This document shows, piece by piece, positions 1,591 through 18,091 of a stretch of DNA of 33,190 nt (positions are counted from its first letter, which is position 1; each line of letters opens with the position of its first letter). Origin of the DNA: Mogibacterium sp. (GTDB lineage: Bacteria; Bacillota; Clostridia; Peptostreptococcales; Anaerovoracaceae); assembly GCA_017512365.1 (NCBI GenBank), contig JAFWGQ010000003.1:1-33190 (forward strand), given 5' to 3'. Both the position numbers and the translations under genes were made by a program. Under the pieces are notes generated by a model, which did not search any database, was not told where the DNA came from, and worked only from the letters and a program-made list of their open reading frames with translations.

Positions 1591-2991
1591 ATGCAAGTCT
1601 ACAATACACTTACGAACAGAAAAGAGGAATTCGTACCTATCGAGCCGGGCAAGGTAAAGATGTATGTCTGCGGCCCGACGGTCTACAACTTTTTCCATAT
1701 CGGAAACGCCAGGCCGTTCGTCGTCTTCGACACGCTCAGAAGATATTTCAAATACAGGGGCTACGATGTGAAATTCGTCCAGAACTTCACCGATGTCGAC
1801 GACAAGATCATAAACAGGGCAAAGGAGGAGGGCATCTCCGCGCCTGAGGTCTCCGAGAAATACATAAAGGAATATTTCGACGACGCCGGGGCTCTGAACG
1901 TCATGAAGGCCGATGTGCACCCTAAGGTCTCGGAGCACATCCCTGAGATCATCGAATTCGTGCAGACCCTTATCGACAAGGGCTACGCCTACGAGGCTGA
2001 CGGCGATGTCTACTATTCGACGCGCAAGTTCCCTGAGTACGGCAAGCTCTCGGGCCAGAACATAGACGACCTCGAAAGCGGCGCACGCATCGCCATCGGG
2101 GAAGTCAAGGAGGATCCGCTCGACTTTGCGCTATGGAAGGCGCGCAAGGAGGAATCCGAGATCGCGTGGGAGTCGCCGTGGGGCATGGGACGTCCCGGCT
2201 GGCATATCGAGTGCTCGACCATGGCAAAGAAGCACCTCGGCGAGACCATAGATATCCACGGAGGCGGCCAGGATCTGACCTTCCCGCATCACGAGAACGA
2301 GATCGCCCAGTCCGAGGCGTGCAACGGAGTCCCGTTCGCGCGCTACTGGATGCACAACGGATACATAAATGTCGACGGAAGGAAGATGTCGAAGTCGCTT
2401 AACAACTTCTTTACGGTAAGAGACATCAGAGAAAAATACACCGGAGACGTCATCAGGTTCTTCCTGCTCTCCGGCCACTACAGGAGCCCTATCAACTTCA
2501 GCGACGTTCTGATGGAGCAGTCGAAGCAGGGCTACGACAGGATAGCGACGGCTATCGAGACGCTCGAGTTCCTGATGGAGAACGGCACGGACGAGCCGAT
2601 GGCTGACGAGGCCGCAAAGCTCGCTTCTCTGGACAGGTTCAGAGACAAGTTCATCGAGGTGATGGACGACGATCTCAATACGGCAGACGGGATCGCGGCG
2701 ATCTTCGAGCTCGTATCGGAGATCAACCTGACTGTGAAGGACGGAGCCTCCAGGTCGTACGCGAAGGAAGCTCTCGGAAGGATAAAGGAGCTCACGGATG
2801 TTCTGGGCATCTTCGGAGGAGAGGATGAAGAGGAAGGCCTCGGAGACGACGTGCAGGCGCTGATAGACGAGAGGCAGGCGGCAAGGAAAGAGAAGAACTG
2901 GGCGCGCGCCGATGAGATCAGAGATCAGCTCGCGGCCATGGGCATAACGCTCAAGGATACGCCGCAGGGCGTTCAGGTGATAAGGAACTGA
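1591..2991 (+). CDS. cysS: Cysteinyl-tRNA synthetase
   Basis: This class I aminoacyl-tRNA synthetase charges tRNA-Cys with cysteine in the cytosol. At 466 residues it is close to the family norm. The HIGH-type signature is HIGN (residues 36-39) and the KMSKS loop is at 265-269. The active-site zinc ligands known from the E. coli enzyme are all present: C27, C208, H233 and E237, the last two in FPHHENE. The start is fixed by AAGGA about 8 nt upstream and by the normal N-terminus (MQVYNTLT). No T-box leader, common before cysS in Bacillota, is seen in the 260 bp upstream; that space holds the tandem repeats. Its stop overlaps the thyA start by one base. Confidence 0.98.
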   Translation: MQVYNTLTNRKEEFVPIEPGKVKMYVCGPTVYNFFHIGNARPFVVFDTLRRYFKYRGYDVKFVQNFTDVDDKIINRAKEEGISAPEVSEKYIKEYFDDAGALNVMKADVHPKVSEHIPEIIEFVQTLIDKGYAYEADGDVYYSTRKFPEYGKLSGQNIDDLESGARIAIGEVKEDPLDFALWKARKEESEIAWESPWGMGRPGWHIECSTMAKKHLGETIDIHGGGQDLTFPHHENEIAQSEACNGVPFARYWMHNGYINVDGRKMSKSLNNFFTVRDIREKYTGDVIRFFLLSGHYRSPINFSDVLMEQSKQGYDRIATAIETLEFLMENGTDEPMADEAAKLASLDRFRDKFIEVMDDDLNTADGIAAIFELVSEINLTVKDGASRSYAKEALGRIKELTDVLGIFGGEDEEEGLGDDVQALIDERQAARKEKNWARADEIRDQLAAMGITLKDTPQGVQVIRN

Positions 2992-3821
2992 TGAGTAAAG
3001 CAGACGTATTATTCGTTGATATGTGCCGCGATGTCCTGGACAACGGCTTCAGCACGGAGGGAATGCCCGTCAGACCCCGCTGGGAGGACGGCACGCCGGC
3101 GCACACGATCAAGAACTTCGGGGTGGTGAACAGATACGACCTCTCGGAGGAATTCCCGGCGCTGACCTTAAGGCCGACGGCGATCAGGCTGGCGACCGAC
3201 GAGATGCTGTGGATATGGCAGAAGAAGTCGAACCGCCTGGCAGATCTGAAATCCCATGTCTGGGATGAATGGGCCGATGAAGAGGGCACCATCGGGAAAG
3301 CCTACGGCTACCAGATGGCCAGGAAGTACAGATTCAGACAGGGCGAGATGGACCAGGTCGACAACGTGCTGTGGTGCCTCAAAAATGACAGGTACTCAAG
3401 GCGCATCCTGACAAACATCTACAATTTCGAGGACCTCTCCGAGATGAGGCTCGAGCCATGCGCCTATTCGATGACCTTCAACGTCAAGGGCGATACGCTC
3501 AACGGCATACTCAACCAGAGGTCCCAGGACATACTTGCTGCCAACAACTGGAACGTCGTACAGTACTCGATGCTCATGCTGATGATGGCGCAGGTGTCGG
3601 GCCTGAAGGCGGGAGAACTCGTACACGTGATCGCAGACGCTCACATCTACGACAGGCACGTGCCGCTGGTGGAGGAGCTGATCTCGAGGCGGCAGTATCC
3701 TGCGCCGAAGGTGAGCCTGAACCCGGATGTAAAGGATTTCTATGACTTCACAACGGACGATATAAAGATCGAGGATTATCAGCACGGAGAGCAGATACGC
3801 AACATTCCGGTGGCGATCTGA
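2991..3821 (+). CDS. thyA: Thymidylate synthase (ThyA type)
   Basis: The enzyme methylates dUMP to dTMP with methylenetetrahydrofolate, releasing dihydrofolate that DHFR (encoded at 5788) must recycle. The 276-residue length fits ThyA. The catalytic cysteine is C157, in LEPCAYS. It is followed by the QRSQD phosphate-binding segment, then an NNWN segment, and later the DAHIYDRH motif equivalent to the GDTHLY region of E. coli ThyA. The sequence is divergent: the classical PPCH motif reads EPCA, as in other clostridial-type ThyA proteins as far as I can judge. ATG at 2991 overlaps the cysS stop (TGATG), so the two are coupled. The gene sits inside the normally tight cysS-mrnC pair. Confidence 0.93.
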   Translation: MSKADVLFVDMCRDVLDNGFSTEGMPVRPRWEDGTPAHTIKNFGVVNRYDLSEEFPALTLRPTAIRLATDEMLWIWQKKSNRLADLKSHVWDEWADEEGTIGKAYGYQMARKYRFRQGEMDQVDNVLWCLKNDRYSRRILTNIYNFEDLSEMRLEPCAYSMTFNVKGDTLNGILNQRSQDILAANNWNVVQYSMLMLMMAQVSGLKAGELVHVIADAHIYDRHVPLVEELISRRQYPAPKVSLNPDVKDFYDFTTDDIKIEDYQHGEQIRNIPVAI

Positions 3822-3843
3822 ACAGGATTACAGAAATCGTAAG

Positions 3844-4257
3844 ATGATGACACAGGAACAGCTCAGAAAAATGAATACGACGACTCTCGCATACCTCGGG
3901 GACGCCGTCTTTGAGGTCATAGTACGTGAAAAGATCGTGTGCGAGAGGCCCGGCGATGTGGACAGGGCTCATCATTCGGCGGTCAGATACGTATCTGCCG
4001 CGGGCCAGGCAAAGGCGGCAAAAGCAATGGTCTCATCGGGCTTTCTGAGCGAAGAGGAACAGGCCGTATACAGGAAGGGCCGCAACCACCGCGCGATGTC
4101 GAGGCCGCAGCACGCCGACCCGAAGGAGTACAAGATAGCCACCGGCTTCGAGACCCTGCTGGGCTGGCTCTACCTCTCCGACGAGAGGGAGAGGCTGCGC
4201 GAGATCGCGGCCGAAGCCGTCCGGATAGTGGACGCGAGTGAAAAAAAGCGGGTGTGA
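3844..4257 (+). CDS. mrnC: Mini-ribonuclease III
   Basis: MrnC is an RNase III catalytic domain without a double-stranded RNA binding domain. In Bacillus subtilis it matures the ends of 23S rRNA in the cytosol. The 137-residue protein carries the family motif LAYLGDAVFE, with the metal-binding Asp at residue 20, and the second acidic position E103 in TGFETLLGWLYL. Two ATGs in a row (3844, 3847) could start it, and no strong Shine-Dalgarno sequence separates them. In B. subtilis rlmB follows directly. Here a ~10-kb block intervenes, though cysS upstream keeps the ancestral order. Confidence 0.95.
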   Translation: MMTQEQLRKMNTTTLAYLGDAVFEVIVREKIVCERPGDVDRAHHSAVRYVSAAGQAKAAKAMVSSGFLSEEEQAVYRKGRNHRAMSRPQHADPKEYKIATGFETLLGWLYLSDERERLREIAAEAVRIVDASEKKRV

Positions 4258-4284
4258 ACGAAGCGGTAACGATGGAGGAGAGTC

Positions 4285-4887
4285 ATGGGTAAGCAAAAAA
4301 AATATCTGATTCTGATGCTGGCGATGCTTATGTCAGTGAGCATGCTTCTGGCCGGCTGCGGAGGAAATGCCGGACCTGATCCGCAGGAGGAAGTGAATAC
4401 GGAAGAGAATCAGGATGACAGCAGGACCGCAGAGTCGGTAAGCGGCTACAACATCATGGAAGGATTTGAAGAGCTGGCCAATGATGACGGTTCGATCAAA
4501 TACCTGTACTTCAACGACTTCATGATGGTGATGCCGGGCAGCGGCAAGTGGAGCTGCGAGCCGGCAGAGGACGGACAGTCGGTCACGTTCTATCTTGACT
4601 CAGCAAAGGACGGCGGCTACGGAGGCAGGCTTGTCACCATTGCGGCGTTCGATATCAATGACGACTCATATAAGAACCTGCCAAGCTACAGTGTGGCCGG
4701 AACAGGCAGCTCAACGAACATGAGATTCGTTGCGGAGTTCCCGACAGACGTGCAGTGGAACGGAGAGGACCCTGAGCAGGATGCAGACTACAGGGACCTG
4801 TCCGATTATGTCCACAAGATCGGCGAGGGCGCAGTCAACAGTCCGCTCACGACAGGAGACAGCAGCCCGGAACCGCAGGCGGACTGA
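4285..4887 (+). CDS. Small lipoprotein of unknown function
   Basis: The 200-residue protein begins with a lysine-rich n-region, a hydrophobic stretch of about 16 residues and the lipobox LLAGC, with the lipidated cysteine at residue 25. It should therefore be anchored outside the cytoplasmic membrane. A flexible, acidic Gly/Asn/Glu-rich linker follows (about 26-50), then a globular domain rich in aromatic residues. I do not recognise the domain. The sequence looks like the generic small extracellular lipoproteins common in Clostridia. A clear GGAGGAG lies 4 nt before ATG. The gene lies 27 bp after mrnC and 28 bp before the PgeF-like gene, so it is probably co-transcribed. Confidence 0.75.
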   Translation: MGKQKKYLILMLAMLMSVSMLLAGCGGNAGPDPQEEVNTEENQDDSRTAESVSGYNIMEGFEELANDDGSIKYLYFNDFMMVMPGSGKWSCEPAEDGQSVTFYLDSAKDGGYGGRLVTIAAFDINDDSYKNLPSYSVAGTGSSTNMRFVAEFPTDVQWNGEDPEQDADYRDLSDYVHKIGEGAVNSPLTTGDSSPEPQAD

Positions 4888-4915
4888 CTCGGATCATTGT
4901 GCGGCTTATCTGCGT

Positions 4916-5791
4916 ATGAAGATAAATTATTCAAACGGCAAAAGGATATTCAGAGAACACAGCGAAGGCATTCCGTATCTGTCGGCCTGCATGCTCGACG
5001 GGCTCGGCGTGCCCAATCTTTTTGCGACCAGATTCATAAGCTGGGATGATGATAAGGGCGAGGGAACAGAAGGCCTGAGGACATCTCTGATGCCGGGAGA
5101 CGACATCAGCGGGACGGCGCCTGTCATACAGGAGTTCAGGGACAGACTGGCGCATCTGCTCGGCTCGTCCATAGACTTTGAGTGCATCACGGACCAGAGA
5201 CATACGAGTCACGTCCATGTAGCATCGGAGAACGATCTCGGGATAAGGTGGCCGAGGAGGCTGCCTCTGCACAGGCAGTATGTCGACGGGGTGGTGACAG
5301 ACGTCCCTGACGCGCTGCTGACGGCATTCGGAGGCGACTGCCCTCCTGTATATCTGGCCGATCCGGTCAGGAAGGCCGTGGGACTTGTGCACGCGGGCCG
5401 CAAAGGCACGCTCGGAAGGATACCGGCCGTGGCGATCGCGAGGATGATCGTGAACTTCGGCAGCGAGCCGGGCAATATGTACGCCGTGATAGGACCGGGG
5501 GTATGTCAGGACTGCTACGAGATGGGCGATGAGATCTACGACGAGTTTGCCTCTCGGTGGGGCGTCCCGGACGCGGAACGCATTTTCAGAAGATATCCGT
5601 CCGGCAGGTACCATCTCGACCTCAGGGAGGCGAACCGGATAACGCTCCTGAGAGCCGGCATACCGGAAGACCATATCGCGGTCTCGAACGTATGCACCGC
5701 CTGCAACGCCGATACCCTGTACTCGTACAGAGCGGGCCGCCTCGAGAACGAGGGCACCGCCATGATAGTGAACCGCTGGGAAGAAAAATGA
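4916..5791 (+). CDS. PgeF/YfiH-type laccase-domain protein (polyphenol oxidase / purine nucleoside phosphorylase family)
   Basis: The 291-residue protein belongs to the YfiH/YlmD (DUF152) family. Members act on purine nucleosides, oxidise polyphenols, or edit peptidoglycan precursors. The three zinc or copper ligands of the family are visible: H96 in QRHTSHV, C142 in GGDCPPVYLADP and H159 in VHAGRKG, with the 17-residue C-to-H spacing seen in E. coli YfiH. The usual HAGWRG motif reads HAGRKG, so the conserved Trp is replaced. I place the start at ATG 4916. The frame is open further upstream, but that would overlap the lipoprotein gene and read as low-complexity Arg-rich sequence. The stop overlaps folA (ATGA). 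Enzyme specificity is uncertain. Confidence 0.85.
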   Translation: MKINYSNGKRIFREHSEGIPYLSACMLDGLGVPNLFATRFISWDDDKGEGTEGLRTSLMPGDDISGTAPVIQEFRDRLAHLLGSSIDFECITDQRHTSHVHVASENDLGIRWPRRLPLHRQYVDGVVTDVPDALLTAFGGDCPPVYLADPVRKAVGLVHAGRKGTLGRIPAVAIARMIVNFGSEPGNMYAVIGPGVCQDCYEMGDEIYDEFASRWGVPDAERIFRRYPSGRYHLDLREANRITLLRAGIPEDHIAVSNVCTACNADTLYSYRAGRLENEGTAMIVNRWEEK

Positions 5792-6282
5792 ATCTCATAG
5801 CAGCAGCAGACAGTAAATGGGGAATAGGAAGAGGCGGCGGACTGCTGGCGTCCATCCCGACAGACATGAAGTACTTCAGGGACCATACCATGGGCAGGGT
5901 CGTCGTGATGGGGCGAAGGACGCTCGAATCCATGCCCGGCAAAAAGGGCCTGCCGGGCAGGACCAATTATGTCCTGACCTCGGACAGGGATCTTACGGCT
6001 GAGCGATGCGTCACAGTCTGCAGCATCGATGAGCTTCGCGAAGAGCTCTCGAAATACGATCCGGACGATGTGTTCCTGATCGGAGGCGCGACGCTCTACA
6101 ACAGTCTGTACAGGGAGTGCGACAGGCTCTACGTGACTAAGATCGACGCCGACCTCGACGCCGATACATTCATCACGGACTTCGACGAAGACCCGGACTT
6201 TGAGATCGAATCGGAGAGCGATCCGGTGCATGAGAACGGACTCACATACCGCTTCACGGTATACAGGAAAAAGGGAAAATGA
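5788..6282 (+). CDS. folA: Dihydrofolate reductase
   Basis: DHFR reduces dihydrofolate to tetrahydrofolate with NADPH, closing the cycle with the thymidylate synthase encoded 2 kb upstream. The 164-residue length is typical. Visible features are the N-terminal NLIAAADSKWGIG strand and loop, the proton-relay acid D26 in SIPTDMKYF, the NADPH-binding VVMGRRTLES segment (about 39-48) and the VFLIGGATLY motif. The Trp next to the catalytic Asp in E. coli is Ala here, a substitution tolerated in clostridial DHFRs. ATG at 5788 overlaps the previous stop by 4 bp, which fixes the start. Trimethoprim response cannot be predicted from this. Confidence 0.95.
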   Translation: MNLIAAADSKWGIGRGGGLLASIPTDMKYFRDHTMGRVVVMGRRTLESMPGKKGLPGRTNYVLTSDRDLTAERCVTVCSIDELREELSKYDPDDVFLIGGATLYNSLYRECDRLYVTKIDADLDADTFITDFDEDPDFEIESESDPVHENGLTYRFTVYRKKGK

Positions 6283-6289
6283 GGCGAAG

Positions 6290-7111
6290 ATGGAACGCAA
6301 GCTGATATTTCTGGATGTTGACGGGACGCTTACTGTTCCGGGCGGACGGGAAGCGCCTGAAAGCGCTGTCCGCGCGATAAGGAGAGCCCGGGAACACGGG
6401 CATCTGGTATTTCCGTGCTCGGGCCGCAACTACGAGATGCTTGAGCCTCTTCTGAAATACGGCTTCGACGGCGGCATAACAAGCTGCGGAGGATACGTGT
6501 TCGCCGGCGGGGACGTACTGCAGGACTGCCCTTTTACGGAGGAGCAGCGAAGCAGGATCGTGACACTGTTCCGGGAAGGCGGAGCTTTTCTCGAGATGGA
6601 GGCGAAGGACGCCGCGTTCATCGATGAGGGCGCGAAACGGTATCTCGAAGACAGCGGACGCAACGGGGACCTGCTGCGGATGATACAGGCCGTATGGATA
6701 GATCTCGGGCCGAAGACCATGGCGGAATATGACGGAAGGCCGGTCTACAAGATGGTGTTCGTCAGTCCCGGCGAGGACCGGATAGCCGCCGCGAAGACTG
6801 AACTCGGAGGCGAACTCGAATTCATCATCCACGATTTTTCCGAGCCGGACTGTATCTTCGGCGAGATCATAAACCGGAAGTTCGACAAGGGCAGTTCGGC
6901 GCTTCTGGTCGCTGAGGCTTTCGGCTGCGGCGCGGAGGATACCATCGGCTTCGGAGACAGCATGCTCGACATCGGACTCATCCGTGCGGCGGGAACGAGC
7001 GTCTGCATGGCGAACGGAAGCCCCAGGCTGAAGGAGATGAGCGACATGGTGTGCCCGTCCGTCGATGAGGACGGGATCGAATGGGCATTCAGGGAGCTTG
7101 GACTGATATGA
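6290..7111 (+). CDS. Cof-type HAD-IIB family phosphatase
   Basis: This 273-residue haloacid dehalogenase-superfamily hydrolase has motif I DVDGT (nucleophile Asp near residue 9) at the N-terminus, the Ser of motif II in PCSGRN, and motif IV GFGDSMLD near the C-terminus. A large C2-type cap is inserted between them, as in Cof/YbiV-like sugar phosphate or flavin phosphate phosphatases. I chose ATG 6290, 7 bp after folA, because MERKLIFLDVDGT matches the usual short N-terminus; an earlier ATG in frame would overlap folA by 80 bp. The stop overlaps the next ATG (ATGA). The substrate is not inferable. Confidence 0.9.
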   Translation: MERKLIFLDVDGTLTVPGGREAPESAVRAIRRAREHGHLVFPCSGRNYEMLEPLLKYGFDGGITSCGGYVFAGGDVLQDCPFTEEQRSRIVTLFREGGAFLEMEAKDAAFIDEGAKRYLEDSGRNGDLLRMIQAVWIDLGPKTMAEYDGRPVYKMVFVSPGEDRIAAAKTELGGELEFIIHDFSEPDCIFGEIINRKFDKGSSALLVAEAFGCGAEDTIGFGDSMLDIGLIRAAGTSVCMANGSPRLKEMSDMVCPSVDEDGIEWAFRELGLI

Positions 7112-7578
7112 AAGCATGTGTATTTTCGGATTCCCACGGATTCGCGGGCAATATGATGAATGCGGTAAGGCTGGAAAAGCCTGACGCAGTGTTCTTCCTC
7201 GGAGACGGAGAAGGGGACATAAAAGAGCTCAGCATGGAGTTCCCCGGACTGACGGTTTACGCTGTCAGGGGTAACTGCGATTTCAGATCGGATCTTGAGA
7301 ACGAGGTCTGCTGCACGCTTGACGGCGTCAGGATATTCGCGACCCACGGCCATCGTTATGAGGTCAAGTTCGATCCGGAGCTTGAGCTGCTCACCTCGCA
7401 GGCTCTCGAAGCCGGGGCTGAGATAGCGCTGTTCGGACACACTCACCGTCAGCACATGTCCGAAAACCGCGGGGTGACTCTGATAAACCCGGGCGAATCG
7501 GGAAGGGGATGGTATCCGGGCTACGCGGTGCTGACGATAGAAAGCGGCGGATTCAGCGCCGAACTCAAATCACTTTGA
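7108..7578 (+). CDS. YfcE/MJ0936-family metallophosphoesterase
   Basis: The 156-residue calcineurin-like phosphodiesterase has the complete metal-binding set in order: DSHG at residues 8-11, LGDGEGD, RGNCD, THGH and GHTH. Family members hydrolyse phosphodiester model substrates, and some act on cyclic nucleotides or serve as cytosolic housekeeping phosphatases of unknown target. The start ATG 7108 overlaps the upstream HAD stop by 4 bp; a longer frame exists upstream but lies inside the HAD gene. Two phosphatases of different folds are thus coupled. If the downstream SLOG/HD-RyR genes use a nucleotide signal, this enzyme would be a candidate for signal turnover, but that is speculation. Confidence 0.92.
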   Translation: MKACVFSDSHGFAGNMMNAVRLEKPDAVFFLGDGEGDIKELSMEFPGLTVYAVRGNCDFRSDLENEVCCTLDGVRIFATHGHRYEVKFDPELELLTSQALEAGAEIALFGHTHRQHMSENRGVTLINPGESGRGWYPGYAVLTIESGGFSAELKSL

Positions 7579-7590
7579 TCAAGGAGAAAC

Positions 7591-8640
7591 ATGTATTACT
7601 TCCACGGAAACTGCCGTAAGTGCACCGAAAAAATAGTCGGAGATCTGGTCAGGGAAGGAAAGACAAAGTTCATAATATACGGATTCGGCGACGCCGGTAT
7701 GAAGGTAAAAAGCATACTCAACGTCTGCATGGGCATACAGGAGCATCTGGTAGTCGACGACAGCCTTGCCGGACGGTACCGGAACATAAAGAGCCTTGCC
7801 GGACTGACTGCGGAAGATCTGAAGGACGCTGTCGTTCTTGTGGCGAGCGATGAAGATACCGTTTACAACGACATGGGTGAGCCGGAGGACGCATACAGCC
7901 GGTTCCGCGCCGATCTTTACCGCCATGTCCCGAAGGAGCAGTGCGTCGAGCTGTTCCCGAGACCGCGCAGGGTCCTTGAAGCGTTTCGCATCGGAGACAT
8001 GAGGGCGGATCTGGAGTCGGCTCTGCGCCTTGCCGCAACGGAGCAGACAGCAGAGTTCATAATGGAGAATCTGATCGATACGCCGCGCTATGCCGACCGA
8101 TATGAGCTGCTTGAGCACATACTGTGCGATGAACTGAGCGCTGATCCCGGACTCATGCTGGAATTCGGCGTGTTCAGGGGAAACAGCATAGATTTTATAG
8201 CCGGATACGCTCCGACGCATACTGTGTACGGCTTCGACAGCTTTGAAGGCCTTCCCGAGAGATGGACCTCCGATCCTGAGGGGATGTACTCAACGGGCGG
8301 CGTGCTTCCGGATGTGAAGCCGAACGTGCGGCTGATCAGAGGATGGGTTGAGGAGACTCTTCCGCGCTTTCTGAAGGAGCACGGAGAGAAATGCTCCTTC
8401 ATCCACATCGACTGCGATCTTTATTCGTCCGCCAGGACCGTGCTCAGCGAACTTCGTGAAAGGATCGTTCCGGGGACGGTCATCGTATTCGATGAGTATT
8501 TCAATTATCCGGGCTGGCAGCAGCACGAATACCGGGCCTTTCAGGAGTTCACGGAGGAGAGCGGCACTGCTTATGAATACATAGGGTACTGCAGAAACGG
8601 CCAGCATGCCGCCGTAAGGATAACGGAAGTGCGGAAATGA
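7591..8640 (+). CDS. TylF-like SAM-dependent methyltransferase with an N-terminal Rossmann-like domain
   Basis: The 349-residue protein has two parts. Residues 25-120 look like a small Rossmann-type domain (FIIYGFGDAGMKVKS, then LVVDDS), as found at the ends of sugar-modifying enzymes. Residues 185-349 match the macrocin O-methyltransferase (TylF) family: SAM-binding EFGVFRGNS (191-199), YGFDSFEGLPE (213-223), the acidic metal-site segment IHIDCDLYSS (271-280) and VFDEYFNYPGW (299-309). It should methylate a hydroxyl on a sugar or other small molecule in the cytosol; the substrate is unknown. AAGGAGAAAC precedes the ATG. Its stop overlaps the start of the SLOG-like gene (ATGA), so it is physically coupled to that module, an unusual partner for a TylF enzyme. 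Confidence 0.88.
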   Translation: MYYFHGNCRKCTEKIVGDLVREGKTKFIIYGFGDAGMKVKSILNVCMGIQEHLVVDDSLAGRYRNIKSLAGLTAEDLKDAVVLVASDEDTVYNDMGEPEDAYSRFRADLYRHVPKEQCVELFPRPRRVLEAFRIGDMRADLESALRLAATEQTAEFIMENLIDTPRYADRYELLEHILCDELSADPGLMLEFGVFRGNSIDFIAGYAPTHTVYGFDSFEGLPERWTSDPEGMYSTGGVLPDVKPNVRLIRGWVEETLPRFLKEHGEKCSFIHIDCDLYSSARTVLSELRERIVPGTVIVFDEYFNYPGWQQHEYRAFQEFTEESGTAYEYIGYCRNGQHAAVRITEVRK

Positions 8641-10241
8641 TAAACGGCAGCAGGATCCCTGTGACAGTCGGAGTGACCGGCCACAGGGACGTAAGGGATG
8701 AAGACAGGGAAATACTGAAAGAGGCGGTGAAGAAGGAACTCGGCGCGCTTCAGGCGAAGTGCCCGGAGTCTCCGGTAGTCGTAGTGACGGCCCTCGCGGA
8801 GGGAGCCGACCAGCTGTGTGCAGGGGCCGCTCTTGAGATGGGGCTCGATCTGATCAGCGTGCTGCCGATGCCGATGCCGGAGTATGCCAAAGACTTTGAA
8901 GGACCGGCTTTCGAAGAGCTGATGAGGCTTGCGGACGCATCTTCACAGGTGTTCGTATCGCCTGAGCCGGAAGCATATGACGAACGCTTCGGCAGCAGGC
9001 GCGACTGGCGCTACAGACAGGCCGGCCTGTACATCGGAAAGCACAGCCATGTGATGATCGCCCTCTGGGACGGTTCGGAAGGGGATGACTGCGGATGCGG
9101 CACAGCCAGCATCGTAAGAGCCGTGCGGAACGGCAGCTTCGGCGGATCCGGCCCGAGGAAGATCTGTCCTGACGACCGGACCGTCATACAGATAACGACA
9201 CCGCGCGCCGGAAGCGGAACGGAGCTCCCGGCGGGAGAGGTGAAGTATCACGGGGACGCGGCGGCTTTTGACAGCATGCTGCGTGACACCGAGACCTTCA
9301 ACGAAGACGCGCTGAAGCGCGGCGCAGCATCCGGAGACGGGGCGGAGGAGGACGGCGATCCGGTGACCGCCGGACTCAGAAGGCTTTACCGCGCAGCCGA
9401 TTCCATTAGCATGGGGAACGCGGTGATCCACAGGAGGTTCCTCGCCCGCCTTTCAGCGGCGGCGACGATGCTCACCATGGCCTTCCTTCTGTATGACGAA
9501 GCCGAATGGCACTGGATGATAATACTCTGCGGCATACTGATAATCGTGCTGTTCGCGATAAACCGCCTGAGCAGAAAAAGAAGATTCCGGGCGCGCTACC
9601 TCGAATACAGGGTGTTTGCCGAGGCCCTGAGGGTGCAGATCCACCTGAGGACGGCGGGCATCGGCTGCGAGGTCAGCGAGATAATGCCGTGGAACCTCCA
9701 GCTCGCGATGCCGTGGATAAGAAACGCGGTATCCGCCTGCATGACCGGTCCCGCTCAGACGGAGCGCAAAAGCGTCAGGGAGAGCTGGGTGATCGACCAG
9801 AGGGACTATCACAGGAGAGCGGCCGTAAAAAGCGGGCAGAAGCTCAGAAAGAACGACCGCATCATCAATATCGCTCTTGTCATGACGCTGCTGATATATG
9901 CTTTCGCCCTCGTCTATGAACTGGCGTGGGGAGACGCTCTCGGAGGGCAGCCTGCATTTTCACCGGAGGCGAACTGCATAATAAGGATGTACATAAAGAT
10001 AGCAATGGGAACGGCCGCGGCAGGCACGCTCTTTGCGGGCAGCTACTACGGCAAACAGGCTCTTCCCAACGTGACGGACGACCACCGCAAGATGGCGGCT
10101 CTGTATGAAGAGGCTGCCGAAGAGATCGGCAGACTTGGAGAGAAAGAAGAACTGCTCATCAGCCTCGCTGAGGATGAACTGACAGAGAACGCGAACTGGT
10201 ACGCATATCAGAGCAAAAATGAGCCTGACCTTGGGATCTAG
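8637..10241 (+). CDS. SLOG-like nucleotide-sensor domain fused to two pairs of transmembrane helices (SLATT-like)
   Basis: This is a 534-residue protein. Residues 6-165 resemble the SLOG/LOG-like Rossmannoid domain: VGVTGHRD (11-18), a TALAEGADQL segment (51-60), VLPMPMPEY (75-83) and IALWDG followed by a G-x-G-T-A run (141-157). SLOG domains bind or process nucleotide-derived ligands. Four hydrophobic helices follow in two pairs, about 268-286 and 291-309, then 407-428 and 448-470. A basic segment follows the first pair (RKRRFRAR) and a helical segment follows the second (ending NWYAYQSKNEPDL), an arrangement like SLATT membrane effectors. It probably senses a nucleotide and acts at the membrane. 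The ATG overlaps the methyltransferase stop; the HD-RyR gene starts 9 bp downstream. Domain calls are by eye. Confidence 0.72.
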   Translation: MINGSRIPVTVGVTGHRDVRDEDREILKEAVKKELGALQAKCPESPVVVVTALAEGADQLCAGAALEMGLDLISVLPMPMPEYAKDFEGPAFEELMRLADASSQVFVSPEPEAYDERFGSRRDWRYRQAGLYIGKHSHVMIALWDGSEGDDCGCGTASIVRAVRNGSFGGSGPRKICPDDRTVIQITTPRAGSGTELPAGEVKYHGDAAAFDSMLRDTETFNEDALKRGAASGDGAEEDGDPVTAGLRRLYRAADSISMGNAVIHRRFLARLSAAATMLTMAFLLYDEAEWHWMIILCGILIIVLFAINRLSRKRRFRARYLEYRVFAEALRVQIHLRTAGIGCEVSEIMPWNLQLAMPWIRNAVSACMTGPAQTERKSVRESWVIDQRDYHRRAAVKSGQKLRKNDRIINIALVMTLLIYAFALVYELAWGDALGGQPAFSPEANCIIRMYIKIAMGTAAAGTLFAGSYYGKQALPNVTDDHRKMAALYEEAAEEIGRLGEKEELLISLAEDELTENANWYAYQSKNEPDLGI

Positions 10242-10250
10242 GAGGAAGAC

Positions 10251-12386
10251 ATGGCATATACCGCATATGAAACGATGAGAAAGGTGAACTTTGAGAGATT
10301 CGGAAAGGATCTCGGTCCGTTCGAGCCTGCGCTTTACAAAAGCAGGAACCACCCGGACGGACTCAAGTCCGCGGCTCTCCGCTTCCTGCACAACAGGTGC
10401 GAGAGGCTGCGCTTTGACGACAGGAAAGAGGCCGAATTCAGGAACGGAAGGTATACCGGCAGAGGCATCTCGCGGCATCAGGTCCCGTACAACATGCAGA
10501 TGGATACAGACAGGCTCTGCCTTGAGCGCGAGCTTGAGAACTTCATCGATTCGGGGTCGGCCCGCGACGCCTATACGGTCTACTACTGCTTCCTCGAGAT
10601 GTTCGTAGGCAGATACGGGACCTCTCAGAGCATGATAGAGCTCCTCTCCGAGTTCGAGTCTAACGCGAGCTCGCTGCTCATGAAGCACCGGGACCACTAT
10701 TCCCACTCGGTATATGTATTCGCGCTCGGTCTTGCGATATACGAGACGAACGTTGAGTACCGCAGGATATTCAGGGAGTTCTACAGCGATCAGATCGGCT
10801 TTGAAGAAAGCGATGACGAGAAGAGAAAGGACTCCCGCGCGGCGTGCTTCTTCCTCGAGTACTGGGGCCTTGCCTCGCTCTTCCACGATATAGGCTATCC
10901 GTTCGAGATACCGTTCGAGCAGGTGATGTCCTACTTCGAGGTAGACAATAAAAAAAGAGGCCCGGGCAGCATCTATCTGGCGTACCACGATACCGGGGTG
11001 CTGACGGAGCTCTGTGACGAGGCCAGGGCGAGATTCAGGGAACTGTACGGTAAAGACTTCGCGACGACCGACGAACTGCTGGCGCACGACATAACAGCCA
11101 GGCTCGGAAAAGCCTACGGCTTTGATCACGAATACATGCTCGGCGTGCTGAAGAGCAAGCCCGGCGAGCCTCAGAACAACGGATATTTCATGGACCACGC
11201 GTACTTCAGCAGCGCGAGGCTCTGTACCGAGCTCTTCGATACGATCGGAAAGGAGCGGGGCGCGGAAAGCATAACACGGGCGCATGTCGATGTGCTCTCG
11301 GCCATCATGCTGCACAACAGCCTGTTCAAGTTCGCGATCGCTTTCTACAAGGAGCCGGAGGGCGTCAGAAAGCCCGAGCTCAAAGCGGAGCTGCATCCGC
11401 TGGCCTACATGCTCATGATCTGCGACGAACTCCAGTGCTGGGACCGCACGGCCTACGGCCGCAACTCGCGGACCGAGCTGCATCCGATGGCCGCCGATTT
11501 CGACTTTGCGGAGGGCACCATCGACGCCGTTTACTACAACGATGAGAATGAATCCGAAAAGATCAACAGCTTCAGGATAGAGTACGCGAAATGGGAGAAG
11601 AGGGTCTCAAAGGCGGAGAAAGAAGGGCTGGTTCCCGATGAGGAGCCGCCGAGGCTGAAGGCGTACAGCGACATGAACGAAAAGGAGAAGCGCTTCGTGA
11701 CCGAGATCGAGCACATAGTCGACACCTCGATAATGCCGCTCACGGTCGTTCCTTCGGTCAGAAAAGTGGACAGGTCGAGCAAGGGTATCTACCTTTCGGA
11801 CAGCAGCTTCCTCCACCTGTACGATTTCGCCGTATCGCTCAACGGGAGATACAGCCATCAGGGCGAAGAGGCAAGGGTCAAGACGGAGAAGCTCGAGAAG
11901 GAATTCAACGAGATGGCTCTCGAATACAAGCTCTCGAACATACGTCAGGCAGGGAGCTTCGACAGATATCTCAATGCCATCGGATGCTTCTTTACGGACA
12001 ATCCGGTGGACTTCGACATGGTCGGCAGCTTCTCTCAGAGAGAGCTCGACACGATCGCTCCGATGGAGCACGAACGCTGGGTGAGGGAGCATATCTCGAT
12101 GGTCTGGAAGGCAGGCAGCGATTACGAGACCATGCCGCTGACGCCTGAGGATGAGCAGGATGCCGCTTCCGGAAAGGTAACGGAGAAGGGGATCAGAGCT
12201 GGCTATCGCGAACAGATGAGGATGCACAGACTCAGCATGAACGGCAATGTGAGCTCAAAGGAGATATACGCTCATTACAATGAGCTTCCCGATAAAGAAC
12301 AGGGCAAGGACTGGAAACCGATGGAGAGCATGCTCAGGCTCATCAAGAAGTACGACGGCCTCCGCATCTACAGACTGGATCAGTAA
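10251..12386 (+). CDS. HD-domain phosphohydrolase fused to a C-terminal RyR domain
   Basis: This 711-residue soluble protein shows HD-superfamily features: H149 and H152 in RDHYSHS, the paired H212-D213 in SLFHDIGYPFE, H355 in IMLHNS and D392 in MICDELQ, a plausible metal site for a nucleotide phosphohydrolase or phosphodiesterase. The segment from about 580 to the end resembles the RyR domain: MEHERWVREH (605-614), a Trp-Lys a few residues on, then LPDKEQGKDW (679-688) and a final LRIYRLD strand. RyR domains are thought to bind nucleotide ligands and are found in prokaryotic conflict and signalling proteins. AGGAGGAAGAC precedes the ATG, 9 bp after the SLOG-like gene. The pair likely makes, senses or destroys a nucleotide signal; which is unknown. 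Confidence 0.75.
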   Translation: MAYTAYETMRKVNFERFGKDLGPFEPALYKSRNHPDGLKSAALRFLHNRCERLRFDDRKEAEFRNGRYTGRGISRHQVPYNMQMDTDRLCLERELENFIDSGSARDAYTVYYCFLEMFVGRYGTSQSMIELLSEFESNASSLLMKHRDHYSHSVYVFALGLAIYETNVEYRRIFREFYSDQIGFEESDDEKRKDSRAACFFLEYWGLASLFHDIGYPFEIPFEQVMSYFEVDNKKRGPGSIYLAYHDTGVLTELCDEARARFRELYGKDFATTDELLAHDITARLGKAYGFDHEYMLGVLKSKPGEPQNNGYFMDHAYFSSARLCTELFDTIGKERGAESITRAHVDVLSAIMLHNSLFKFAIAFYKEPEGVRKPELKAELHPLAYMLMICDELQCWDRTAYGRNSRTELHPMAADFDFAEGTIDAVYYNDENESEKINSFRIEYAKWEKRVSKAEKEGLVPDEEPPRLKAYSDMNEKEKRFVTEIEHIVDTSIMPLTVVPSVRKVDRSSKGIYLSDSSFLHLYDFAVSLNGRYSHQGEEARVKTEKLEKEFNEMALEYKLSNIRQAGSFDRYLNAIGCFFTDNPVDFDMVGSFSQRELDTIAPMEHERWVREHISMVWKAGSDYETMPLTPEDEQDAASGKVTEKGIRAGYREQMRMHRLSMNGNVSSKEIYAHYNELPDKEQGKDWKPMESMLRLIKKYDGLRIYRLDQ

Positions 12387-12413
12387 TAAGAGGAGATAAA
12401 CGACCTGTTCGAA

Positions 12414-13529
12414 ATGAATCAGAAAACCAGAGAAAGAAACCGGATCATTATAAAATACAGCATACTGGGAATAGCGATGAATCTGCTGCTGGCTGTTTTC
12501 AAGATAGCAGCCGGCGCCGCTGCCCGTGCCCACGCGGTCATGCTCGACGGAGTCAACTCGCTTTCCGACATGGTATCTTCACTGCTGACACTTCTGTCGT
12601 CGTATGTCGCCGGCAAAAGGGGAACGAAGGACCACCCGCTGGGGTACGGCAGGCTCGAGTACATAAGCTCGCTCGTTGTAACGATGATCGTCATGTACAT
12701 AGGCGCGATCACCCTGTTCGGAACGGTAAAGTCGATAATCCATCCGCATGATCCTCCGCAATACAGCACGCTGCTGACAGTGATCATGATCGTATCATTC
12801 GTCTGCAAACTCGCCTACGGCGTGCTCATGCGAAGGAGGGGGAGAGATCTGGATTCCGCTGCGATGATAATGACCGGAACCGAGAGTCTGGGCGATGCGC
12901 TGATATCCCTTTCCATCCTGTCGGCGATAGTGATCTACCGAGTCACAGGAGTCGACGTGGAGCACTGGCTGTGCGTGATCATAGCACTGATGATCCTGCA
13001 CACCGGCGTCAACATGATAAGGGAATGCGTCACCAAGATACTCGGGACGCGTCTTTCCGACGAGGACAGGAAGAGGACGGCAGCCATAGCGGCGGGCTTC
13101 GACGAGGTGCTGCACGTATCCAATCTGATGCTGCACAATTACGGAGAGGGCTGCGATGTGGGCTCGCTGGACATAGAAGTGGATGAGAACCTGACAGCGG
13201 CGGAGATAAGCAGGCTGACGCGCAGGATAATAAGGAGCGCCGCTGAACAGGGAGTGACACTGACCTCTGTCGGGATAAGCGGCACGAACACTACGGATCC
13301 TGAAGCGCTGAGGATGTGGGACGAGATCATAGCCGTAGCGAGAAAGCACGAAGGCATCAAGCGCGTGCATTCGCTCATGATGGATAAAGAGGAAAACGTC
13401 ATATCATTCGCCGTGGTGCCGGACTACTCGGTGAAGAAACGTGACGAAAGCCTGCGGGCTTTCATCGGGGAGCTGGAGGGTATGTATCCCGGAACGGCCT
13501 TCGATGTACGCGAAGAGATAGACATGTGA
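12414..13529 (+). CDS. Cation diffusion facilitator (CDF) family transporter
   Basis: The 371-residue membrane protein exports divalent metal by proton antiport, as CDF proteins do. It has about six helices in residues 13-200 and a cytosolic C-terminal domain. TM2 carries D45-G-V-N48-S-L-S-D52, and the short loop motif DHPLGYGRLEY matches the clostridial CDF clade. In TM5 the metal site reads E157-S-L-G-D161 rather than H or D at the first position, which may shift selectivity (Mn, Zn and Fe remain possible). Start choice is open: AGGAGA at 12391-12396 is 17 nt from ATG 12414 but 8 nt from an in-frame CTG at 12405. No direct link to the upstream HD-RyR gene is evident beyond proximity. Confidence 0.88.
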   Translation: MNQKTRERNRIIIKYSILGIAMNLLLAVFKIAAGAAARAHAVMLDGVNSLSDMVSSLLTLLSSYVAGKRGTKDHPLGYGRLEYISSLVVTMIVMYIGAITLFGTVKSIIHPHDPPQYSTLLTVIMIVSFVCKLAYGVLMRRRGRDLDSAAMIMTGTESLGDALISLSILSAIVIYRVTGVDVEHWLCVIIALMILHTGVNMIRECVTKILGTRLSDEDRKRTAAIAAGFDEVLHVSNLMLHNYGEGCDVGSLDIEVDENLTAAEISRLTRRIIRSAAEQGVTLTSVGISGTNTTDPEALRMWDEIIAVARKHEGIKRVHSLMMDKEENVISFAVVPDYSVKKRDESLRAFIGELEGMYPGTAFDVREEIDM

Positions 13530-13545
13530 CGAGGAGGACCCGGCC

Positions 13546-14565
13546 ATGCGTTACCATACAAAGGAATACTACAGACTGCTGATGGCTCTGGGCAGAGCTG
13601 ACTGCTACGAGCCGGTAATAGATAAGGATACCTATACTGAAGAGGACATCGCGGAGCTGTATCAGCGGGCTCAGGACAGGTACGTTGAAGAGGAACGGGC
13701 CGATTACGATGCTCCGCCGGATCCCATGATCGATGATGAGGATCTCGAGGAATTCGATCCGGAGGACTTTACGTTTTACGCCCCGGGACTTTTTGACGAT
13801 GCAGACCCTGACGATCAGACTCCGAGGCGCCCGGCTGACCGGGAGGAGCTCATGAAGCTCTGTGAAAAAATGTATGCCCTGGCTGTCGAAGAGTACGAGA
13901 ACAGGATGCCTTTCGATGAAGAGGAAGCGAAGGCGGATTTTGAAGAAATGTACAGGGACAATCTTCGGGAGCCGGACGAGGATCTGCCTGACTGGGTCAG
14001 GGAGGCTGTCGACCCGCGGATCATTGCGATGGAGTTTCTGCCTGAAAAGATCTACATGAAGCTTCTGGCGGAGGATGAGGCCAACGAGAGGAGCTTCGAC
14101 GCCCTCGATGAGGCGGCAGACGAAGCCTGCGAGGCCCGCATGGAAGAGCTTCCGCCGGAGTACCGCGAATTCACTGAAGTGCTCGAGGATCTGGAGGACT
14201 CGATCGTGATCAGTCTCGGCATGGAAAAAGGGATATTCAGCAGCGAAGAAGATGATGCGTGGCTGGAGATCCTCATGGTCGGCTGGAGCGATGAGGGAAA
14301 AGAGGTCCCGAGGATCCTTAAATTCATGAAGCCGGAATTCATGGAAGATGAGGGCATAGAAGTCAATGCGCGGGAAGATGAGTACGGTGATTCGGATTCA
14401 GACTGCGAGTTCCTGTACGGCGAGCTTTATCTCGAGGGAGGAAGTCCGGAATTCCACATGCTCTTTGACAACAACGGACTGAAATACCTTACGTTCAGGT
14501 GCGAAGAAGCGGTCGCGGAATACGGCTGGAACAACGAAAGGTGCAGGATAGGGAAGGTTTCATGA
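13546..14565 (+). CDS. Acidic protein of unknown function (possibly DUF4085-like)
   Basis: The 339-residue protein is strongly acidic, with Asp/Glu runs around residues 60-90 and 115-200, and has no signal peptide or membrane helix. The N-terminus MRYHTKEYYRLL resembles the start of DUF4085-type proteins of Bacillota, but I hold that lightly. The last 130 residues look globular, with alternating strands (GELYLEGGSPEFHMLFDNNGL). No catalytic motif stands out. GAGGAGG lies 8-9 nt before the ATG. The stop overlaps the rlmB start by 4 bp, which couples the two. Function unknown. Confidence 0.7.
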   Translation: MRYHTKEYYRLLMALGRADCYEPVIDKDTYTEEDIAELYQRAQDRYVEEERADYDAPPDPMIDDEDLEEFDPEDFTFYAPGLFDDADPDDQTPRRPADREELMKLCEKMYALAVEEYENRMPFDEEEAKADFEEMYRDNLREPDEDLPDWVREAVDPRIIAMEFLPEKIYMKLLAEDEANERSFDALDEAADEACEARMEELPPEYREFTEVLEDLEDSIVISLGMEKGIFSSEEDDAWLEILMVGWSDEGKEVPRILKFMKPEFMEDEGIEVNAREDEYGDSDSDCEFLYGELYLEGGSPEFHMLFDNNGLKYLTFRCEEAVAEYGWNNERCRIGKVS

Positions 14566-15524
14566 GCAAAAGAGACAACAGGAGATTCAACGACAGGGAC
14601 AGGAAGAACGCTCCGAAGAGGGGCGGCAAGAACCGCCGGGACTACGGAGCTGACTACGAGCCTGAAGCGGGAAGCGGCCCGGGAAGAGGACGGGGCGGGC
14701 GCAGGAAGGCGCCGGGACATGACGTGAACGGGACGTACGAAGATCGCATGCCTCACGCCGGTGCGGACGGTCTTGAGGTGGTAGCCGGCAGGAACCCGGT
14801 CGCGGAGGTCCTTGAAGGCGGCCGCCATGTCGAGAGGGTGTTCATAGCCGACGGCTCCGAGGGGTCGATATCCAGGATCATCGCCCTCGCGAGGGAGAAG
14901 GGAGTCGTGCTCGACTTCGTGCCGAAGGAAAAGATAGACGCGATGGCCCCGAATGTGAAGCACCAGGGGGTCGTCGCGAAGGTCAGCGAATACAAATATG
15001 CTGAGATGGAGGACATATTTGCGAAGGCGGAGGAGGCCGGCGAGGATCCCTTCATCATGATCCTGGATGAGATAAGCGATCCGCACAATCTCGGCGCGAT
15101 CATGAGGACGGCCGAGTGTGCCGGCGCTCACGGAGTGATCATACCGAAGAGACGCGCGGCGTCCCTGACTCAGACGGTCGCGCTGTCAGCGGCCGGCGCC
15201 GTCGAGACCATGCCTGTGGTACAGGTCACCAACCTCGGCCGGACCATAGAGGAACTCAAGGAAAAGGGCATATGGGTAGGAGCCGCCGACATGGACGGCG
15301 AGACCTACTACAGGGCGGATCTCACAGGACCGATCGCCATAGTCATAGGCAATGAGGGAAAAGGGGTAGGACGCCTCGTAAAGGAGAAATGCGACTTTGT
15401 CCTTTCTATCCCGATGTACGGAAAGATAAATTCGCTTAACGCGTCAAACGCCGCCGCCGTTCTTTTGTACGGCATCAGAAGAGCCAGAGAAGGAGGAGAC
15501 AGACAGGATGTACGGGATAATTGA
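14562..15524 (+). CDS. rlmB: 23S rRNA (guanosine-2'-O-)-methyltransferase RlmB / SpoU family
   Basis: This SPOUT-fold (TrmH/SpoU) methyltransferase uses SAM and is expected to methylate 23S rRNA, G2251 in E. coli numbering. All three SPOUT motifs are visible in the C-terminal half: DPHNLGAIMRTAECAG, IVIGNEGKGVG and IPMYGKINSLNASNAA, the last forming the trefoil-knot SAM site. Residues about 68-145 form the substrate-binding N-terminal domain (VVAGRNPVAEVLEGG). The first ~65 residues are an Arg/Gly-rich disordered extension that may bind RNA. I chose ATG 14562, which overlaps the upstream stop and has GGAAGG at 14552-14557; the protein is then 320 residues. This gene restores the ancestral cysS-mrnC-rlmB order after the inserted block. 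Confidence 0.95.
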   Translation: MSKRDNRRFNDRDRKNAPKRGGKNRRDYGADYEPEAGSGPGRGRGGRRKAPGHDVNGTYEDRMPHAGADGLEVVAGRNPVAEVLEGGRHVERVFIADGSEGSISRIIALAREKGVVLDFVPKEKIDAMAPNVKHQGVVAKVSEYKYAEMEDIFAKAEEAGEDPFIMILDEISDPHNLGAIMRTAECAGAHGVIIPKRRAASLTQTVALSAAGAVETMPVVQVTNLGRTIEELKEKGIWVGAADMDGETYYRADLTGPIAIVIGNEGKGVGRLVKEKCDFVLSIPMYGKINSLNASNAAAVLLYGIRRAREGGDRQDVRDN

Positions 15525-17487
15525 GAGAGATCAGGCGCTCGCGCCGTATGAAAACGACATAAGGATGAGGATGGAGCGCTATTCCGGCAAAAAGAGCCAG
15601 CTGCTCGGCAGCGAGTATTCATCGCTCAATGACTTCGCCAACGCCCACAAGTGGTACGGATTCCACAGGACAGAAGAAGGATGGGTGTACAGGGAGTGGG
15701 CCCCGGCAGCAGATCAGCTCTATCTGACGGGAGACTTCAACGGCTGGCACTGGACCGATACTCCGATGACAAGGCTCGACAACGGCAACTGGGAGCTCTT
15801 CCTTCCGGGAGACACCATCGGACAGGGCAGCAGGGTCATGACCATAGTCGACAACGGCGGCAGGCTCACACAGCACATACCGCTTTACGCCCGCCGCGTC
15901 ACCCAGGACTGGGAGACCCAGAGTTGGTGCTGCGAAGTATGGGACGACGAGCCGTACGACTGGACGGACGAGGGCTTTTCGAGCAGTGAGCCCCCTGTCA
16001 TATACGAGGCGCACGTCGGCATGTCGAGCGAAGAGCACAAGGTGGCGACGTACAGGGAGTTCGCGGACAATGTCCTTCCTCACATCGCGGCGACGGGATA
16101 CAACACCGTGCAGCTGATGGCTGTCATGGAGCATCCGTTCTACGGATCCTTCGGCTATCAGGTGAGCAGCTTCTACGCGGCGTCGAGCCGCCAGGGCTAC
16201 CCGGACGATCTCAAATACCTGATCAACAAGGCCCACGGCATGGGCCTGAGGGTGCTGCTCGATGTAGTGCATTCCCACGCTGTCGGCAACACGCTCGAAG
16301 GCATCAACGAATTCGACGGGACGGATTATCAGTTCTTCCATCACGGAGACAAGGGCAACCATCAGGCGTGGGGCACGAAGCTCTTCAATTACGACAAGCC
16401 GGAGGTGCTTCATTTCCTGCTGAGCAATCTGAAGTTCTGGCTCGAGGAATATCACTTCGACGGCTTCAGGTTCGACGGAGTGACGTCGATGCTCTATCAC
16501 GATCACGGACTGGGCTCGAACTTCACCGATCTTTCGATGTATTTCAGCATGAATACGGACGTCGAGGCGATATGCTACCTCCAGCTGGCCAACGAGCTCA
16601 TACGCGAGGTGAAGCATGACGCCATGACTATCGCGGAGGACATGAGCGGCATGCCGGGCATGTGCGAGCCTGTGGCGGACGGAGGCATCGGCTTTGACTA
16701 CCGCCTCGGCATGGGACTGCCTGACCTGTGGATAAAGCTGGTGAAGGACTGGCGCGATCAGGACTGGAACCTCGGCATGATATGGCACGAGATGACCTTC
16801 CGCAACGCGCGCACCATCGCCTACGCGGAGAGCCACGACCAGGCTCTCGTCGGCGACCAGACACTGATGTTCCGCCTCGCCGGCGCCCGCATGTACGACC
16901 AGATGGAGAAGGACTTCCACAGCTTCGAGATAGACAGGGCGATGGCTCTCCACAAGATGATAAGGCTCATAACAATGTCGGCCGGCGGCGACGGATATCT
17001 CGCGTTCATGGGCAACGAGTTCGGGCATCCGGAGTGGATAGACTTCCCGCGTCCGGGCAACGGCAACAGCTTCCAGTACTGCCGCAGGCAGTGGAGCCTG
17101 CTGCATAACCCTGCGCTCAAGTACGACCAGCTCTACGCCTTCGACCACGACATGATACATACGGCCGTCTACTATCATATCTTTGATCAGCGCTGGCCTG
17201 AGCTCAGGTGGCTGCACGAGGACGACATGGTGATAGCATTCGAGCGCGGAGGTCTGGTCTTCGTGTTCAACTTCTCGCCCGATCACGACTACGGGGATTA
17301 TCAGATCCCTGTCAGCCACGGGATCGACCACGCGGTGCTCTTCACGAGCGACGACTTCAGATACGGCGGCTTCGGCCGGATATCCCACGAGGACAGGAGC
17401 GCCTTCGTTCCGGGAAGAGAAGGGAACTTCCTGAGTCTCTTCCTGCCGTCGCGCACCTGCATGGTGCTGCGCCCCGTAGACAGATAG
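15508..17487 (+). CDS. glgB: 1,4-alpha-glucan branching enzyme, eukaryote-like GH13_8 type
   Basis: The enzyme makes alpha-1,6 branches in glycogen. The 659-residue protein has an N-terminal CBM48 domain (YREWAPAADQLYLTGDFNGW, 61-80) and a GH13 barrel. Catalytic residues are D323 (FRFDG, nucleophile), E377 (IAEDM, acid/base) and D444 (ESHDQ), with the DVVHSHA motif at 252-258. Segments such as FRFDGVTSMLYHDHGLG and MGNEFGHPEW match the branching enzymes of eukaryotes and a subset of bacteria (GH13_8) rather than E. coli-type GlgB. AGGAGG is 11 nt before ATG, and the start overlaps the end of rlmB by 17 bp. No other glycogen gene lies in the window, so its place inside the translation cluster is odd. 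Confidence 0.94.
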   Translation: MYGIIERDQALAPYENDIRMRMERYSGKKSQLLGSEYSSLNDFANAHKWYGFHRTEEGWVYREWAPAADQLYLTGDFNGWHWTDTPMTRLDNGNWELFLPGDTIGQGSRVMTIVDNGGRLTQHIPLYARRVTQDWETQSWCCEVWDDEPYDWTDEGFSSSEPPVIYEAHVGMSSEEHKVATYREFADNVLPHIAATGYNTVQLMAVMEHPFYGSFGYQVSSFYAASSRQGYPDDLKYLINKAHGMGLRVLLDVVHSHAVGNTLEGINEFDGTDYQFFHHGDKGNHQAWGTKLFNYDKPEVLHFLLSNLKFWLEEYHFDGFRFDGVTSMLYHDHGLGSNFTDLSMYFSMNTDVEAICYLQLANELIREVKHDAMTIAEDMSGMPGMCEPVADGGIGFDYRLGMGLPDLWIKLVKDWRDQDWNLGMIWHEMTFRNARTIAYAESHDQALVGDQTLMFRLAGARMYDQMEKDFHSFEIDRAMALHKMIRLITMSAGGDGYLAFMGNEFGHPEWIDFPRPGNGNSFQYCRRQWSLLHNPALKYDQLYAFDHDMIHTAVYYHIFDQRWPELRWLHEDDMVIAFERGGLVFVFNFSPDHDYGDYQIPVSHGIDHAVLFTSDDFRYGGFGRISHEDRSAFVPGREGNFLSLFLPSRTCMVLRPVDR

Positions 17488-17506: not shown

Positions 17507-17519
17507 GTCAAGAATTTGC

Positions 17520-17819: not shown

Positions 17820-17849
17820 TCTGAGTACAGTAATAGGCGGAGTAGCATC

Positions 17850-18077: not shown

Positions 18078-18091
18078 TCAAGGAGTTATAA

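Follow-up and report, generated by a model that had tools for sequence, protein, structure and literature searches.

Which cellular process is served by a membrane protein and a phosphohydrolase-like protein whose genes lie side by side amid housekeeping genes? The question is raised by Mogibacterium sp. contig JAFWGQ010000003.1 (assembly GCA_017512365.1), of which positions 1..33,190 of the forward strand, a stretch of 33,190 nucleotides referred to here as the window, were analysed. The first gene (8637..10241, plus strand) encodes a protein of 534 residues in which a SLOG domain is fused to two pairs of membrane helices (SLOG-4TM), and the second (10251..12386, plus strand) a protein of 711 residues with an HD domain and a C-terminal RyR domain (HD-RyR). 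The genes are separated by 9 bp, and an AGGAGG ribosome-binding site (10240..10245, plus strand) precedes the HD-RyR ATG, which confirms the two-gene arrangement described in an earlier note on this DNA. We consider it probable that the pair represents receptor-effector modules of a TIR-driven, Thoeris-like form of nucleotide-centric immune signalling with signals of the ADP-ribose type.

Domain composition of the two proteins

The N-terminal domain of SLOG-4TM (residues 7-228; 8655..9320, plus strand) carries a GVTGHR motif, and its structure model has the Rossmannoid SLOG fold of the YspA/YAcAr type. The Pfam YAcAr match of the window protein lies below cutoff (19.5 bits, cutoff 28.2, E 8.4e-4); among the 27 proteins of the family alignment A4, six of which are without SLOG, 11 match YAcAr at E <=0.01. 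The domain is followed by a four-helix membrane and helical region (residues 242-527; 9360..10217, plus strand) with conserved FLLYDE and YRxLAE motifs, which is DUF4231/SLATT-like as judged from the DUF4231 profile, alignment A4 and the structure model. The window protein scores 20.6 bits with DUF4231 (cutoff 24.7, E 6.1e-4), and 20 of the 27 aligned proteins match at E <=0.01, the best of them at 7.1e-6. This region also occurs without SLOG in some relatives, as in seven of 29 partner loci (one truncated by a contig end).

The HD phosphohydrolase domain of HD-RyR (residues ~80-505; 10488..11765, plus strand) is of the class I phosphodiesterase (PDE) type. Its structure model scores highest with PDEs, the cyclic nucleotide PDEs being nearest, and lower with SAMHD1. 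Pfam HD matches are weak, with three out of 11 members of alignment A6 matching at E <=1 (best 0.022); A6 comprises 11 divergent members, ten of them relatives that are 23-72% identical to the window protein. The metal site is complete: H149, H212, D213, H316, H355 and D392 (plus-strand codons at 10695, 10884, 10887, 11196, 11313 and 11424, respectively) are invariant in 81/81 HD-RyR proteins.

The C-terminal RyR (R12, PF02026) domain (residues 510-710; 11778..12380, plus strand) is recognized both by fold and by sequence profile, which matches a Bacteroides-human (Bt-human) RyR chimera first and RyR2 second, at 3e-31; the single-sequence Pfam match (E 0.002) is under cutoff. Residues H607, W610 and D687 (codons at 12069, 12078 and 12309) are likewise invariant in 81/81 proteins, and together with the HD ligands they are kept in 11/11 members of A6. 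The SLOG-like domain, the complete HD metal site and the RyR-like domain that the earlier note had read from the sequence are thus all borne out.

In the profile alignment, H607, W610 and D687 fall on the His, Trp and Asp of the Bt-human RyR chimera. By this sequence argument, which is helped by the HxxW spacing and drawn through the RyR/chimera alignment, with RyDEP itself outside it, they would be equivalent to H75, W78 and D117 of the phage protein RyDEP. According to PMC13232231, these three residues bind and cleave 2'/3'cADPR, where cADPR is cyclic ADP-ribose. At the position of a further residue, the phosphate-binding His of RyDEP (H100), the window family has an insertion, in which H659 is conserved in 81/81 proteins.

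Recurrence of the gene pair

The neighbourhood survey that the earlier note had proposed was carried out on the best 80 of 398 HD-RyR relatives in a genome collection. Many of these 80 loci are titled as rumen or gut metagenome-assembled genomes, and they are not independent of each other. In 20 loci a SLOG-4TM relative was found no more than 300 bp from HD-RyR, and the number rises to 29 if the whole locus is counted. The counts of partners and TIR genes over the 80 loci are based on all open reading frames (ORFs); the gene caller used in some of the locus surveys hid genes under overlapping ORFs, as in the case of the SLOG-4TM gene of G257. Gene order in the pair varies: the window, L040 and L041 have SLOG-4TM in front, L044, L045 and others have HD-RyR in front, and L043 has the two genes in divergent orientation. 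In adjacent pairs, the divergence of one protein is matched by that of the other (r 0.93 over 20 pairs; 0/2000 permutations).

Co-occurrence was also examined in a sample of 197 genomes of the family, in which SLOG-4TM is present in eight and HD-RyR in nine, two of the latter through the RyR part only. Both genes are found in five genomes, including that of the window (Fisher 4.9e-7), when these two genomes (G039 and G067) are excluded from the HD-RyR side; with them included, the number is six (3.0e-8). Neither of the outcomes that the earlier note had named as fatal to its idea, namely the lack of any SLOG or RyR relationship and an adjacency confined to one lineage, has occurred.

A reduced version of the pair is present in L029 (8406-10536), where HD-RyR is without its HD core and the partner without SLOG, both as open reading frames and with the RyR residues kept in the alignment. 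This is a natural double domain loss.

Association with TIR genes

Many HD-RyR genes are accompanied by genes for TIR proteins. Of the 80 loci, 23 have a TIR gene at 300 bp or less from HD-RyR, 44 have one at up to 3 kb and 54 have one at any distance in the locus; 62 have a TIR or SLOG-4TM gene. TIR ORFs, several of which stand in one locus in places, number 42 in the 152.9 kb lying 1 kb or less from HD-RyR (0.275 per kb) and 18 in the 753.9 kb at 3-10 kb (0.024 per kb), a difference in density of 11.5x. The count is slightly circular, since the TIR profile was made from nine TIR domains of the loci under study, three of which (L084, L100 and L111) are among the 80. Pfam TIR_2 was confirmed in representative TIR proteins; a TIR-like family of ~275 residues received no TIR_2 confirmation from Pfam. 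A Glu residue is present at the aligned catalytic column in 54 of 85 TIR domains, and the domains without it may be misaligned or inactive.

The TIR genes can be part of the same gene run as the pair. An example among the closest relatives is L041, with the same gene order as the window and an HD-RyR protein 72% identical to that of the window, where a TIR gene lies upstream. In operons such as those of L072 and L078, HD-RyR is followed in turn by TIR-like, TIR-LRR, large LRR and SLOG-4TM genes. The genes lined up in G151 encode SLOG-4TM, a TIR protein weakly matching PASTA, an LRR protein and HD-RyR. Those of G027 are divided between two contigs, one with a TIR-PASTA/LRR/SLOG-4TM set and the other with HD-RyR/TIR-PASTA; in G026 an LRR gene accompanies HD-RyR and SLOG-4TM. 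The TIR gene adjoins SLOG-4TM in G356 and G257, genomes in which no HD-RyR match was found, and it adjoins HD-RyR in G450 and G519, in which no SLOG-4TM match was found. A TIR gene can therefore accompany either of the two proteins in the absence of its partner.

HD-RyR also has further neighbours, among them two other membrane-type partners. In record MT836912 (L028, 543-6509; labelled phage, from human faeces) genes for a CorA-like protein (PADLOC CorA 1e-48), HD-RyR and TIR are consecutive, with a phage head-like gene nearby, and this system is possibly prophage-borne. The second such partner, an alpha/beta hydrolase with a hydrophobic N-terminus, adjoins HD-RyR in L075, L076 and L089. Directly upstream of HD-RyR in L058 (8146-9864), L065 and L114 a small helix-turn-helix (HTH)-like gene is followed by a Ser/Thr kinase-LRR gene, a possible sensor-regulator unit. 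The labels phage head-like and hydrophobic N-terminus, as well as HAD, YfcE, ThyX, MrnC, recombinase and relaxase, were given by inspection only.

A variable spot between folA and rlmB

In the window the pair is located in a variable insertion (6283..14555) between folA (ORF 5557-6282) and rlmB (from ~14556). In three genomes of the same genus (G135, G169 and G082) folA is directly followed by rlmB, and in G196 the gap holds an HD-RyR gene minus the HD core and a partner minus SLOG. Contig C58 of the window's bin (L133) carries a cysS-folA-rlmB set in which TIR and TIR-Sel1 genes flank folA, before rlmB; this is a second use of the same spot. The earlier note had held the housekeeping surroundings to speak against a role in defence. 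This objection fails because the spot is variable: empty in some genomes, holding a decayed pair in another and TIR genes on a contig of the same bin.

Besides the pair, the insertion carries HAD, YfcE, TylF, CDF and DUF4085-like genes. The last of these (13546-14565) encodes a very acidic protein of 339 residues with a weak DUF4085 match. The stop of the TylF-like methyltransferase gene (7591-8640) overlaps the SLOG-4TM start in an ATGA, an arrangement that suggests translational coupling; in L040-L043, matches among the window reference genes were to SLOG-4TM and HD-RyR only, leaving TylF unmatched. Such a mixed content could mean that SLOG-4TM and HD-RyR are unrelated passengers of an insertion spot whose adjacency is meaningless, as could their joint presence in the window's genome only in a class-level sample. 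Their spacing of 300 bp or less in 20 of the 80 loci, in either order, and their co-occurrence in the family sample speak against this, and we regard it as very improbable.

The distribution of the genes also bears on the kind of process involved. A stress-response or cell-envelope signalling system, rather than an antiviral one, in which TIR-LRR, kinase-LRR and SLOG proteins would answer host or envelope signals in gut bacteria, would fit neighbours such as Ser/Thr kinases (one with LRR), LRR_5 repeats and TIR fused to TPR and WD40 repeats, and just one relative was found among viral contigs. On the other hand, the presence of the genes is sporadic (8 and 9 of 197 genomes), the spot has empty sites, one copy (L120) belongs to an element that also carries recombinase and relaxase-like genes, and the catalytic Glu of the TIR domains is aligned in 54/85. 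Such a role thus appears unlikely to us, and an antiviral one is favoured.

Outside the insertion, minus-strand open frames with repeated peptides (LRQRR) at ~616-1563 and 29494-30042 are probably interspersed repeats in intergenic DNA.

Proposed mechanism

In the proposed immune system, a TIR protein encoded elsewhere in the genome would make a nucleotide from NAD+ upon infection. Binding of this nucleotide by the SLOG domain would open or distort the four-helix membrane part, and the RyR domain would bind a signal of the same family through its adenine-stacking Trp and the His/Asp pair, and thereby control the PDE-like HD phosphohydrolase. The HD domain would then destroy a nucleotide, more likely a cellular target (making HD-RyR an effector) than the signal itself (making it an off-switch). 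One TIR-made alarm serving two receptor-effectors is the most economical reading. The earlier note had envisaged a membrane effector gated by a nucleotide that the HD protein makes, binds or degrades; the signalling idea persists in the present proposal, but TIR proteins, whose genes are found next to one or both members of the pair in many relatives, are likelier makers of the nucleotide than the HD protein.

The choice between effector and off-switch rests on several findings. As an off-switch, HD-RyR would open or hold cyclic ADP-ribose signals with its RyR domain and cut the product with its HD domain, shielding the cell from its own TIR-SLOG alarm, with SLOG-4TM as the sole effector. RyDEP, which shares the H/D dyad, acts as a glycosidase on 2'/3'cADPR (PMC13232231), the dyad is invariant in 81/81 HD-RyR proteins, and the HD fold is closest to cyclic nucleotide PDEs. 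However, the other RyDEP homologues tested failed to cleave (PMC13232231), and in G450 and G519, where TIR adjoins HD-RyR and no SLOG-4TM was found, the role of effector would fall to the TIR protein or another gene if HD-RyR were an off-switch. TIR and HD-RyR neighbours without SLOG-4TM modestly favour HD-RyR as an effector, although an effector may lie elsewhere in those two genomes, and the off-switch, the main rival, seems doubtful to us. More specifically, the cellular RyR domain may be a receptor of TIR-made cADPR, and HD-RyR a cADPR-gated phosphodiesterase effector acting in parallel to the SLOG-gated membrane effector in answer to one and the same alarm; this we put forward only tentatively, as more likely wrong than right.

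For the window pair itself, a TIR source in trans is plausible. Contig C31 of the same bin carries four TIR genes in tandem and resembles the window in tetranucleotide composition (r 0.92 vs 0.87 for C58). The four genes (L132, 5283-10223), one with an LRR-type match, lie next to an HTH-like gene on the opposite strand.

A number of observations weigh against TIR-driven immune signalling by this pair. Firstly, as regards the TIR link, a TIR_2 search of the window contig gave no match, the TIR matches of the bin being on C31 and C58, and C58 is probably a contaminant from a related strain, since it carries its own, second folA-rlmB set (bin contamination is given as 6.94%). Neither TIR nor SLOG-4TM was found in 18/80 HD-RyR loci, several of which are short contigs, and no TIR match was found within the stretches fetched around the distant HD-RyR genes of G313 and G381. 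Secondly, as regards the pair, both genes occur together only in the window's genome in the class-level sample (391 genomes), and their matched divergence could be explained by shared ancestry alone. Thirdly, neither window protein reaches a Pfam cutoff as a single sequence, so that the SLOG and RyR assignments required further proof, and the window HD-RyR had no PADLOC match at E <=1. Finally, the position of the phosphate-binding H100 of RyDEP is Ser or Thr in 6/6 short-form distant members of A6, and none of the other RyDEP homologues tested degraded the signals, with 6/8 binding them (PMC13232231).

Significance

SLOG, SLATT, TIR and RyR are in part already known as conflict domains. No paper on an HD-RyR protein with a link to TIR or SLOG came up in word searches of the papers covered; two works outside that set, the Burroughs paper of 2015 and the TIR survey by Yirmiya of 2025, might describe one. 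A 2026 preprint describes a phage RyR domain that degrades TIR-made immune signals (PMC13232231); the counterpart to be expected in cells is a host-encoded RyR domain that is linked to TIR genes and has the same active residues. HD-RyR thereby offers a testable candidate receptor for cADPR-type signals together with an HD enzyme, and SLOG-4TM a candidate membrane effector found both fused to its SLOG sensor and free of it. The matter is also relevant to the question of whether animal ryanodine receptors are direct targets of cADPR. Were RyR a cADPR receptor, one bacterial TIR pathway would join SLOG (TRPM2) and R12 (ryanodine receptor), both tied to animal ADP-ribose signalling, and the old puzzle of cADPR and the ryanodine receptor would gain a bacterial immune root.

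Comparison with known systems

The system resembles SIR2-SLOG Thoeris (ThsA/ThsB) in the TIR partner of many relatives and in having SLOG as candidate receptor, the SLOG domain of ThsA containing a 3'cADPR pocket (PMC11204291). It differs in that SLOG is fused to membrane helices instead of SIR2, with neither SIR2 nor macro domains among the Pfam matches at E 1 or better, and in the addition of a second receptor-like protein, HD-RyR. Moreover, the TIR proteins of the relatives carry LRR, TPR, WD40 or PASTA parts, and a TIR gene corresponding to ThsB is present in the same operon in many relatives, whereas the window contig is without a TIR_2 match. With TM-macro Thoeris it shares TIR and a membrane effector with a cytosolic sensor of the ADP-ribose type (PMC11204291). 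Here, however, SLOG takes the place of the macro domain and the membrane part has four helices.

TIR-SLATT and SLOG-SLATT units reportedly belong to the nucleotide-centric network of Burroughs and Aravind (2015). SLATT is predicted to be a nucleotide-gated pore effector and is found with TIR genes (PMC7159879, PMC9503650). The present system would share with these units a candidate SLATT-type membrane part and, in relatives, the TIR company; it differs in its DUF4231 score below cutoff and its two helix pairs, and a word search of both papers gave no RyR. The phage anti-Thoeris protein RyDEP also has an R12/RyR domain, and its H, W and D appear from sequence to stand at equivalent positions, but HD-RyR is cellular, fused to a PDE-like HD domain and linked to TIR rather than opposing it, and the phosphate-binding His is not clearly kept. 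Lastly, CloA of Clover is an HD dGTPase defence effector switched by nucleotide ligands (PMC12265719). Its partner is a nucleotidyltransferase, and the HD-RyR model is closest to PDEs with SAMHD1 scoring lower, but by analogy CloA provides a precedent for an HD phosphohydrolase as a nucleotide-switched effector, as HD-RyR may be.

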